Below, one piece after another: positions 45,209-47,430 of a DNA stretch of 64,000 bases. The stretch comes from Saccharothrix australiensis (lineage in GTDB: Bacteria; Actinomycetota; Actinomycetes; Mycobacteriales; Pseudonocardiaceae), in NCBI RefSeq assembly GCF_003634935.1, contig NZ_RBXO01000001.1:62001-126000 (forward strand), written 5' to 3'. The notes beneath the pieces were generated by a model. The model made no database searches, was not told the origin of the DNA, and saw nothing but the letters and a program-made list of their open reading frames with translations. The first letter of the stretch is position 1, and the number at the start of each line of letters is the position of its first letter. Made by a program: the position numbers and the translations under genes.

Positions 45209-45787
45209 GTGGTCGGTTCGGAACACAACAGCGGCGGCATCGCGCGTGTGCAGAACACGCTGACGAACCTGCGCATCCAGGACGGCGTGGCTCCGCCCCC
45301 GACCGGTCCCCTGACGCTGGAAGACCTCTACCGCCAGCACCGGATGAGGCTCGTCCGCCTGGCCCTGCTCCTCGTGGACGAACCGGCGACCGCCGAGGAC
45401 GTGGTCCAGGAGGCGTTCACCGGCCTCCACCGGAACTGGTCCAACCTGCGGGACGCCCAGGCGGCCGTCGGCTACCTGCGCACGGCCGTCGTCAACGGCT
45501 CACGCAGCGTCCTACGCCGCCGCAAAACGGCCCGCGACTACACACCGCCCCACGTGGCGAACGCCCGCTCGGCCGAGAGCCTGGCCATGCTGACGGCGGA
45601 ACACCAGGCGGTGGTCGCGGCCCTGTCCCAATTGCCGCCACGACAGCGCGAAGTGCTCGTGCTGCGCTATTACGGCGACCTCTCGGAAGCCGAGATCGCC
45701 GAGGCGACGGGCATTTCCAAGGGCACCGTGAAGAGCACGGCGAGCAGGGCCCTCGACGCACTTCAGAAGATCATGGCCGCCCGCTGA
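45209..45787 (+). CDS. SigE-type ECF sigma factor
   Basis: 192 residues. A distinctive N-terminal extension (VGSEHNSGGIARVQNTLTNL) precedes region 2 (LEDLYRQHRMRLVRLALLLV, TAEDVVQEAFTGLHRNW). Region 4 has LPPRQREVLVLRYYGDLSEA and GISKGTVKSTASRALDAL. The GTG at 45209 has AGGTAACG about 9 nt upstream. No linked anti-sigma gene: a large non-coding palindromic block follows directly. Confidence 0.88.
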   Translation: MVGSEHNSGGIARVQNTLTNLRIQDGVAPPPTGPLTLEDLYRQHRMRLVRLALLLVDEPATAEDVVQEAFTGLHRNWSNLRDAQAAVGYLRTAVVNGSRSVLRRRKTARDYTPPHVANARSAESLAMLTAEHQAVVAALSQLPPRQREVLVLRYYGDLSEAEIAEATGISKGTVKSTASRALDALQKIMAAR

Positions 45788-45809
45788 CCGCCAGGACACA
45801 CCTCTGCCG

Positions 45810-45943
45810 GCTGCGTGTCATCCCCGTACGGCCTGCCCGCAGGGCAACCACGCTTGGCAGGCCAGGTCAAGCACGCTTCACCGCTTGACCTGGCCTGACA
45901 AGCGTGGTGGTCTTTGACAGGCCGTACGGGGATGACACGCAGC
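45810..45943 (+). repeat. Palindromic module 1 of an unknown structured element
   Basis: The outer arms at 45810-45835 and 45918-45943 are a perfect 26-bp inverted repeat. Inside, 45848-45872 and 45883-45907 pair over 25 bp with one mismatch around the loop ACGCTTCACC. A small TGCCC-GCA-GGGCA hairpin and the single strand TGGTCTTTGA lie between the two stems. Module 2 (46155-46280, opposite strand) shares these blocks and the loop but has different, still-paired stem sequences. It begins 22 bp after the sigma-factor stop. Confidence 0.9.
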
Positions 45944-46154
45944 CACAAAGCTTTTCACGCTTCGAAGAAGCTTGAAAAGCTCGCAAAGCTTCGAAGAAGC
46001 TTTGCCCTCATCCTTGGTGGCCTGCCCAGCGGCGAGCGCCCTTCTTTAAGCTTTGACCCGCTCAAACCGAAGAACTTCTGTGCTGATCTCAGCCGAAAGA
46101 AAAGAAACGCTCGCCGCTGGGCAGACCTCCGGGGAGGAAAAGCTTTAAAGGCGT
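45944..46154. repeat. AT-richer centre of the palindromic block
   Basis: Lies between the two inverted modules and is clearly richer in A and T than its surroundings. It holds AAAGCTTC-GAA-GAAGCTTT (45985-46003), AGCTTTTC/GAAAAGCT pairs, and a multibranch-like fold closed by CTGCCCAGCGGCGAGCG (46022-46038) and its perfect 17-bp complement at 46108-46124, with a TTTGA-CCCGC-TCAAA hairpin inside. Short open frames on both strands are Lys- or Arg-rich and do not look coding. Confidence 0.75.
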
Positions 46155-46280
46155 CGTGTTCTCCCCGCATGACCTGTCAAAGACCACCACAGTCGGTCAG
46201 GGGGCGCAAGCGGTGAAGCGTGCTTGCGCCCCCTGACCGACTGTGGTTGCCCTGCGGGCAGGCCATACGGGGAGAACACG
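46155..46280 (-). repeat. Palindromic module 2, inverted relative to module 1
   Basis: Outer arms 46155-46176 and 46259-46280 pair over 22 bp; the two plus-strand mismatches become G-U pairs if the minus strand is the RNA. Inner arms 46187-46211 and 46222-46246 are a perfect 25-bp inverted repeat. The minus-strand loop ACGCTTCACC, the block TGCCCGCAGGGCAACCAC and the block GTGGTGGTCTTTGACAGG are shared with module 1, but the variable stem is different. Confidence 0.9.
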
Positions 46281-46475
46281 AGACCAGGAGTCTGTGCTGC
46301 GCGGTGCGGTGTGCCCGGATCTGTGCTGCGCGTGCAGGGGTCCGGGTCGGTGTCGGGGGGCGGAGGCAAGGGGCTTGGTGCCGGGAGTGGGGCTGGGGTC
46401 CCGGAGGGCTTGACGGGGGCTTGCGTTCGGGGGTGCGCAAGGCGGCCGGAGGTGTACCGGGTGGGGGAATCGGGC
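46281..46475 (+). other. G-rich leader region upstream of the nagK-like gene
   Basis: No gene seen. The plus strand carries many GGG or longer runs (e.g. GTCGGGGGGCGGAGGCAAGG, GGAGTGGGGCTGGGGTCCCG) and a direct repeat TCTGTGCTGCGCG (near 46290 and 46320). It could form G-quadruplexes or simply be compositional skew. Confidence 0.4.
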
Positions 46476-46476
46476 A

Positions 46477-46492
46477 CTTGGTATAGACCAAT
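46477..46492. promoter_or_regulatory. DasR-type operator (dre) before the nagK-nagA pair
   Basis: CTTGGTATAGACCAAT contains TGGTATAGACCA, 11 of 12 positions of the dre core TGGTCTAGACCA known from Streptomyces DasR, the GlcN-6-P-responsive GntR repressor. It ends 29 bp before the kinase start. The downstream genes are GlcNAc catabolic, which is what DasR controls. Confidence 0.75.
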
Positions 46493-46521
46493 GGTGGGCC
46501 GATGCCGCACTATCGGTCCTC

Positions 46522-47430
46522 GTGGCGCGCACTAGACACGTGATAGCCGTCGATGTCGGCGGTACCGAGACCAAGGCTGCCCTCGTGGCCGGCACCGCCG
46601 GCGGCGTGCGGGCGGTGAAGCAGCGGCGTCGGGCTACGACTCGGGACGCCGAGGCCGTGGTCGGCCAGGTGGCCTCGTTGGTCGACGAGTTGCGCGCGGA
46701 CACCGAGGTGGAGGCGGTCGGGCTCGTCGTGCCGGGTGTCGTGGACGAGGACAACGGCGTCGGCGTGTACTCGGCCAACCTCGGCTGGCACGACTTCCCG
46801 TTCGTCAAGCAGGTCGAGGCCCGGACGGGGACGAGGACCGCGTTCGGCCACGACGTGCGGGCGGGCGGGTTGGCCGAGCTGCGCGTCGGCAACGCCCGTG
46901 GGCTCCGGAACGCGGTGATCATGCCCATCGGCACGGGCATCGCCGGCGCCCTCGTGCTCGACGGCAGGATCTACCGGGGTGACGGCAGCGTCGGCGAGAT
47001 CGGCCACGTCGACGTCGGGCACGGCGACCCGTGCGGCTGCGGCCAAACGGGTTGTGTCGAGGCGCGGGCCTCGTCGGCGGCCATCGCGCGCCGGTACGCC
47101 GAGCGGACCGGTGATCCGGTCAGCGGTGCCGCCGACGTCGCGAGGTTGGTCCGCGAGGGCCGGCCGGACGCGGTGGTGGTGTGGCAGGAAGCGGTGGACG
47201 CCCTCGCGAAGGGCATTCTGCTGGTAGCGGCTCTACTGGGGCCGGAGGCGGTGGTCCTGGGCGGAGGTCTCGCGCTCGCCGGGCCGCTGCTCACGGACCC
47301 GTTGCGGGACCGGCTGGACGGGTTGATCACGTTCCAGCGGCGTCCGGAACTGCGGCTCGCGGCGTTGGGCGACGAGGCCGGGTGCCTCGGGGCCGCGCTG
47401 CTGGCCATCGACATGCTGGAGGAGACATGA
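46522..47430 (+). CDS. nagK: ROK-family sugar kinase, probably N-acetylglucosamine kinase
   Basis: 302 residues. ATP motif HVIAVDVGGTETKAALVAGT. The ROK zinc motif is in GEIGHVDVGHGDPCGCGQTG with C-G-C-G-x-x-G-C. Second phosphate motif in IMPIGTGIAGALVLDG. The ROK fold alone does not fix the sugar; GlcNAc is inferred from the 4-bp overlap with nagA and the dre site upstream. GTG at 46522 with a poor ribosome site. First gene of the pair. Confidence 0.8.
   Translation: MARTRHVIAVDVGGTETKAALVAGTAGGVRAVKQRRRATTRDAEAVVGQVASLVDELRADTEVEAVGLVVPGVVDEDNGVGVYSANLGWHDFPFVKQVEARTGTRTAFGHDVRAGGLAELRVGNARGLRNAVIMPIGTGIAGALVLDGRIYRGDGSVGEIGHVDVGHGDPCGCGQTGCVEARASSAAIARRYAERTGDPVSGAADVARLVREGRPDAVVVWQEAVDALAKGILLVAALLGPEAVVLGGGLALAGPLLTDPLRDRLDGLITFQRRPELRLAALGDEAGCLGAALLAIDMLEET

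Follow-up and report, generated by a model that had tools for sequence, protein, structure and literature searches.

Double-hairpin elements of mitochondrial genomes are mobile paired hairpins with compensatory changes in their stems, and the attC sites of integrons are folded strands with R and L boxes that are cut by the integron integrase and lie in cassette arrays. REP sequences, BIMEs and REPINs are dispersed extragenic palindromes that occur as singlets and inverted doublets, with several subfamilies per genome and persisting populations, as set out in those portions of PMC8049555, PMC6006769 and PMC3733652 that were considered here. The portion of PMC5217627 considered here describes an intergenic palindromic motif with 57 copies in one genome, partly between converging genes, the role of which is not known.

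The window analysed here is a stretch of 64 000 nt (positions 62001-126000 of C1 in the 7.86-Mb genome of Saccharothrix australiensis, G000). A preliminary description of two inverted hairpin modules in it had recognised no known family. Rfam release 15 gave 0 matches in the window at gathering score; a permissive Rfam search gave 19 matches, all under gathering scores and mostly to microRNA models. No paper on the element was found in the open-access literature (subscription papers and preprints were outside the scope), and the word 'Saccharothrix' is absent from PMC3733652, PMC13155455 and PMC5217627. The element is apparently undescribed so far.

Architecture of the window locus

Module 1 (45809-45944, plus strand; outer arms 45809-45835 and 45918-45944, inner arms 45847-45872 and 45883-45908) and module 2 (46154-46281, minus strand; inner arms 46186-46211 and 46222-46247) are four-way-junction hairpins. 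Each module folds in the order outer stem, J1 mini-hairpin (CCC-GCA-GGG; 45836-45844 in module 1, 46250-46258 in module 2), inner stem (variable, 26 bp) closed by a fixed terminal loop (ACGCTTCACC at 45873-45882 in module 1; 46212-46221 in module 2) and J2 mini-hairpin (GTC-TTT-GAC; 45910-45918 in module 1, where the last C can alternatively pair within the outer stem; 46176-46184 in module 2). On re-reading of the sequence, the preliminary description proved correct in its coordinates, in the blocks shared by the modules, in how their stems differ and in its remark on G-U pairs. The inner stems differ between the modules and are each self-complementary over 26 bp with one mismatch in module 1 and none in module 2, the outer stem of module 1 is perfect over 27 bp, and two plus-strand mismatches in the 23-bp outer stem of module 2 are wobble pairs, U-G and G-U, when the minus strand is read. 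The joints had been pictured as internal loops; by direct stem parse this picture was refined to a four-way junction with two mini-hairpins, each of three pairs and mostly with three-base loops. Folding gave -117.9 kcal/mol for module 1 (z -16.7) and -114.6 kcal/mol for module 2 (z -15.5), and 0/200 shuffles were as low in either case.

The element ends in a left terminus, GGACACACCTCTGCC (45794-45808, plus strand; GGCACACC... in other copies), and a right terminus, GCACAGACTCCTGGTC (46282-46297, minus strand; GCACAGACCTCTGG... in other copies), which are the last sequence common to 21 doublets whose flanks are otherwise unrelated. Between the modules lies the AT-richer core reported previously (GC 0.54 vs 0.73 in the window) with its 17-bp-arm structure, a perfect inverted pair (CTGCCCAGCGGCGAGCG). 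This pair corresponds to two inverted copies of a conserved tail, one trailing each module and the two facing each other (left unit CTGCC-CAGC-GGCGA-GCGC, 46010-46039, plus strand; right unit 46108-46137, minus strand). Immediately after module 1, at 45947-46002, direct repeats rich in AAGCTT were noted together with a 15-bp hairpin, and the equivalent stretch is present, shortened or missing depending on the doublet. Degenerate ~29-bp repeats (TCTGTGCTGCGCGGTGCAG-like) were seen past the right terminus at 46291-46345, with exact 13-mers at 46291 and 46320, and also lie outside right-type modules at several other doublets.

Tails generally start 16-79 nt past the module on the module strand (5th-95th percentile of 62 distinct tails) and are laid out as YCTGCC, a short stem arm, GGCGA and the other stem arm. 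The arms vary in a compensatory manner (GTCC/GGAC, GCGC/GCGC, CGCC/GGCG, GGCC/GGCC), and the CTGCC could also pair with GGCG. In the window's own variant, CAGC, just two bases pair, and the stretch 46000-46070 folds no better than shuffles (138/200 at least as stable). Among 18 loci with a parsed central module (within L075-L093), the tail was found downstream in one orientation in 16 and in both orientations in none; the other two loci were from other genera.

The upstream gene, coding for an ECF-type sigma factor (Sigma70_r2, Sigma70_r4_2; 45209-45787, plus strand), stops 22 nt before module 1, and the next gene encodes a ROK family kinase/regulator (46540-47430, plus strand; start possibly at 46522). 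A strict scan of 45600-46560 gave no promoter-like or terminator-like site (GC-rich hairpin with T-run). In a loose scan, which had no control, a hairpin with a T-rich stretch was found within 150 nt downstream of 70/138 modules.

Covariation and the strand that folds

For alignment A2, sequences were collected with CAAGC, ACGC and GCTTG as search anchor and picked to differ in the inner stem within each genome; 2 of 87 sequences (125 nt) were left out, giving 85 modules from five species. With the four-way junction applied, 99.0% of cells were paired (84.0% in shuffles), 545 cells had two-sided changes (139.8 in shuffles), the covariation score was 0.424 (0.137 in shuffles) and 24 pairs showed a two-sided change (20.6 in shuffles, with 4/500 shuffles reaching 24), values which are comparisons and not probabilities because the structure was partly derived from the same sequences and the rows are related. 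When the partners were slid by 1-3 columns, at most 43.5% of cells were paired and at most 77 were two-sided. An RNAalifold pairing across the joints (79.7% paired, no two-sided change) was discarded in favour of the mini-hairpins. In J1, two of three pairs showed two-sided changes, one in 19 and the other in 36 of the 85 modules (variants in module orientation: CCC-GCA-GGG, CCC-GGA-GGG, CGC-GCA-GCG, GGC-GCA-GCC, GGC-GAA-GCC and GGC-GTA-GCC), and in J2 one of two counted pairs was so changed in 19/85 (GTC-TTT-GAC, GTC-TTC-GAC, GCC-TCC-GGC and GCC-TTC-GGC).

The 18-nt arm of the variable stem is different in all 85 modules, partly owing to the selection for differing stems. Its opposite arm is perfectly complementary in 60/85, departs by G-T only in 2 and carries another mismatch in 23, of which 20 share one recurrent non-standard pair. 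This pair (A2 columns 31 and 82, near the base of the inner stem; 20/85 modules) is G against G where read and looks as if it were kept like a feature. At the loop, CAAGC/GCTTG and ACGC do not vary among the 85 modules, the same letters having served as search anchor. Singlets with stems that occur once in the genome are still paired.

In module orientation, 83 G-U cells in 13 pairs were counted among the 85 modules versus 4 A-C cells in 4 pairs, and this excess means that one strand folds. Against the argument it has to be weighed that two pairs account for 61 of the 83 G-U cells. An orientation-neutral parse was also made, in which 84/232 modules ambiguous in orientation were left out and 8 of the 148 retained (those with GTC-type J1) are probably reversed; for the inner stem it gave 16 distinct G-U events versus 2 A-C events (p 0.0013), and for the outer stem 23 versus 12, a weak excess (p 0.09). 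The bias speaks for RNA, or for DNA with an obligatory stage as a single strand, and not for a duplex cruciform. C-GNA-G mini-hairpins are very stable in DNA too, so the mini-hairpin loops cannot decide between RNA and DNA. The large covariation across copies and species, together with the strand-specific fold, bears out the earlier proposal of a selected RNA or single-stranded DNA fold.

Dispersal, gene context and site history

By blastn with module 1 as query, at least 40 distinct places were found in G000, module 1 included (best 40 of 86 candidates scored). A covariance model built from 26 modules, with which at most 150 candidates each were scored in G000, in Saccharothrix tamanrassetensis (G011) and in a further congener (G006), gave at least 59 modules at no fewer than 38 sites in G000 (21 doublets and 17 singlets; 150 candidates scored, plus- and minus-strand matches to one palindrome combined manually, short matches of ~66-79 nt outside the count), 146 matches at ~97 places in G011 (merged by hand) and at least 150 matches in G006, with apparently no place listed twice. 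Modules 1 and 2 are members of this dispersed family. An element pattern scan of a genome collection, in which the window's own genome was possibly not included, gave 10 stretches in S. tamanrassetensis. A pattern match in IMG/VR (L109) was rejected, as no module was seen by eye in 300 nt around the 19-mer, and blastn against phage and plasmid collections gave no match to the element.

At E <= 0.001, 24/60 genomes matched, comprising 22/25 in the genus (own included), 1/11 others in the family and 1/24 others in the order. In a family survey with 11 candidates scored per genome and stricter filters, 45/297 genomes matched at E <= 1e-10, spread over 8/46 genera. Homologues therefore lie far beyond the locus and the similarity is not arm-to-arm within a single locus; neither such confinement to one locus nor a lack of homologues or of covariation, all of which the preliminary description had named as speaking against it, occurred. 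Outside the genus, loci of g39 and g49 (L249, L252, L253) carry the tail, and 11/11 g8 loci from the family survey lack it despite the common ACGC-type loop; by that loop the g8 loci are likely, though putative, kin. These loci (L244, L245, L247, L250, L251, L254-L258, L261) have long hairpins with an ACGC-type loop and different joints, and the hairpins are possible distant relatives. A second module subfamily was seen in G011 (L211, L215, L217, L221, L223, L228; ~152 nt, GATCG-type inner stems, longer loop), which sometimes occupies sites that hold window-type modules in G000.

All of the G000 sites analysed were intergenic (34/34), and all doublets faced inward, tail to tail (75/75), usually with no gene inside. 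Gene calls came from a codon-usage script, and one end of a doublet is not independent of the other. On these calls, 124 sites in three genomes (including the 64 G011 loci minus 3 edge loci and 1 without parsed module, and 30 G006 loci) lay in 56 convergent, 60 tandem and 8 divergent gaps, compared with 34, 166 and 92 for module-free gaps (chi-square p 1e-15). The upstream gene was in sense for 143/199 modules (p 6e-10), at a median of 92 nt from the gene end; the 56/199 modules antisense to the upstream gene count against a reading as 3' UTRs. On the G000 chromosome, 31/38 sites fell in the dnaA-proximal half (dnaA at C1:331,969), and an arc of 2.39 Mb was free of any site (p 6e-5 vs uniform). 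A bias toward conserved regions would explain this skew as well as a chromosome-organising role would.

Both a mobile element and a pair of convergent RNAs had been left open for the locus; copies are indeed scattered, and site occupancy differs among related species, some of which have empty sites. At the sigma-ROK locus, a module is present in 3/25 genomes (G000, G011, G019), and an energy scan read by eye gave none in the other 22. At a second site (L018), a doublet in G000 corresponds to a module with tail in G016 and to short module-free gaps of 114, 123 and 57 nt in G006, G009 and G010, respectively, with other neighbours in G011 and G023. A native palindrome adjoins the insert at L018 and is also found in the empty G006 site, so that the element need not be the terminator there. 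When 64 G011 loci were compared with the G000 sites, 17/38 of the latter had a counterpart element in G011 at the same position, supported by a match of both flanks, and 4 further sites matched by one flank at >=85% (two weaker one-flank matches were left out); 3/30 G006 loci matched G000 sites. At shared sites the stems, and at some also the subfamily, differ between species. AGTCGGTCAGGGGGCGC occurs in the right-type module of 17/21 G000 doublets, and CGC-GCA-GCG is common in G011 left-type modules. As the same sites carry different stems, positions are often older than sequences, and either copies have replaced one another or become uniform inside a genome, or insertion has hit these sites more than once. 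Similar short termini stand at the element ends, and the flanks have diverged too far between filled and empty sites for a target-site duplication to be read.

Y1 transposase (PF01797) was counted 0 times in G000 and in none of G006, G009, G010, G011 and G016; one is present in G023, and 5/25 genomes of the genus have it. Reverse transcriptase (PF00078) was likewise 0 in G000 and absent from G006 and G009; it was found in 10/25 genomes of the genus, among them four module-rich congeners (G010, G011, G016, G023). As engines, both were rejected for lack of a copy in G000; the element being present there, neither is needed for its presence now, and past activity of a Y1 enzyme (including a lost RAYT) or of a reverse transcriptase is conceivable. 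IS630-like transposase genes (DDE_3; winged HTH) were noted at L178:1731-2342 (G006) and L204:515-943 (G011), in the spacer of one doublet and right beside a shortened module of another. As their places differ in the two cases, these genes are taken as insertions into the element, as if this IS family lands in such elements.

Readings of the element and comparison with known systems

About even confidence is placed in a reading in which this dispersed, REPIN-like intergenic element of the Saccharothrix group has a strand-specific fold that is under selection, probably in mRNA 3' UTRs. Its unit begins with the terminal sequence, continues with the giant hairpin and its four-way junction and closes with the short tail, and is placed alone or as two units facing inward. 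It is the module-orientation strand that folds, and this strand is most likely RNA that arises when transcription of the upstream gene reads through, which would put the module within the 3' UTR of that gene. Copies may be kept for an action of the folded RNA on the 3' ends of mRNAs, candidate actions being the blocking of 3' exonucleases, the insulation of converging genes or binding via the fixed loops; the fold would stabilise or delimit the transcript, and the two units of a doublet would serve the two sides. Spread and homogenisation within a genome may proceed by recombination between copies plus a mobilising activity. Against this reading stand the scan of 45600-46560 and the shuffles of the window's tail described above.

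Possible, if on the unlikely side, is a purely selfish non-autonomous element, in which the single-stranded DNA or RNA fold would be the substrate of an enzyme acting in trans and selection would be on mobility and not on host gene ends. Lineage-specific copy sets (the low sharing between G006 and G000), empty sites, inward doublets with shared termini and unrelated flanks, and the strand-specific fold are all consistent with it, and the shunning of divergent gaps can mean avoidance of harm; the zero counts of Y1 transposase in six of the genomes (with 1 in G023) and of reverse transcriptase in G000, G006 and G009, the sites often common to G000 and G011, and the singlets that remain paired although their stems are unique in the genome argue against it. 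A further reading, tentative and rather doubtful, is a new class of mobile structured RNA in bacteria, a ~200-nt molecule with a four-way-junction, fixed-loop head and a conserved tail (in which CUGCC and GGCG could pair), located in mRNA 3' UTRs; some enzyme would need its folded strand to spread it, and the same folded strand would be required for its influence on the host's transcript, making it a bacterial SINE analogue without a reverse transcriptase found in the same genome.

BIMEs have been proposed, with gyrase, to have a chromosome-organising role. A device of similar kind at the DNA level, namely supercoil-driven cruciforms or protein-binding sites between genes, would suit the long near-perfect palindromes, the enrichment between converging genes and the skew of sites along the chromosome; it is nevertheless improbable, as both strands take part in a duplex cruciform and no excess of G-U over A-C would be expected from it, and the chromosome bias may merely follow conserved regions. 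Very improbable is an origin of the covariation as a by-product of palindrome correction, with one arm copied from the other in replication or repair and no selection on the fold: pairwise differences in the inner stem are mostly two-sided, as such copying would have it (25494 vs 3950 one-sided), yet it predicts neither a G-U excess nor covarying 3-bp mini-hairpins, and neither fixed loops, tail variants nor gene-end polarity. The selected, strand-specific fold, probably at mRNA 3' ends, is the reading retained. Few repeat families show so plainly a single-stranded fold, down to 3-bp mini-hairpins, that is kept while the stems turn over, and the modules of related species amount to a mutagenesis experiment done by nature on a single four-way junction. 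Three questions become testable with the element: what copies such repeats in a genome in which neither a RAYT nor a reverse transcriptase was found, by what route an entire family becomes uniform while its sites stay in place, and whether actinomycetes have a layer of regulation in the structured 3' UTRs of genes that converge.

Compared with the known systems, the element shares with the hairpin ends of IS200/IS605 the hairpins near its ends that are folded on one strand, and differs in the lack of a Y1 transposase in G000 and of an internal gene in the usual doublet. Compared with MITEs, which have terminal inverted repeats, a target-site duplication and an autonomous partner with a matching transposase, its termini are short and similar, and no partner was identified; a retroelement-derived (SINE-like) RNA is set apart by the reverse transcriptase count of 0 in G000. 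From integron attC sites it differs in that its copies are scattered and not arrayed. Mitochondrial double-hairpin elements, compared by description, are likewise paired hairpins with compensatory stem changes, and differ from this element of a bacterial chromosome, which has far longer stems, mini-hairpins, a tail and gene-end polarity. The motif of PMC5217627 is, in the portion considered, likewise intergenic, present in many copies and partly between converging genes, but it is a short spaced motif for which that portion describes no junction fold. With REPs and REPINs the element has in common that it is dispersed, extragenic and arranged as singlets and inverted doublets (34/34 intergenic, 75/75 inward), with more than one subfamily per genome and populations that last; it differs in its unit of ~130 bp (20-40 bp for REP), its four-way junction and conserved tail, the absence by eye of a GTAG/CGTC tag standing at the same place next to the two module types (CGTC is seen next to the right type alone) and the absence of a RAYT (Y1 transposase, TnpA_REP) in G000. 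REPINs are closest in lifestyle, yet the size, tag and RAYT tests fail, and the element is best placed among the dispersed palindromic repeats, as a variant of them; that it represents a new class of mobile structured RNA is a real chance.
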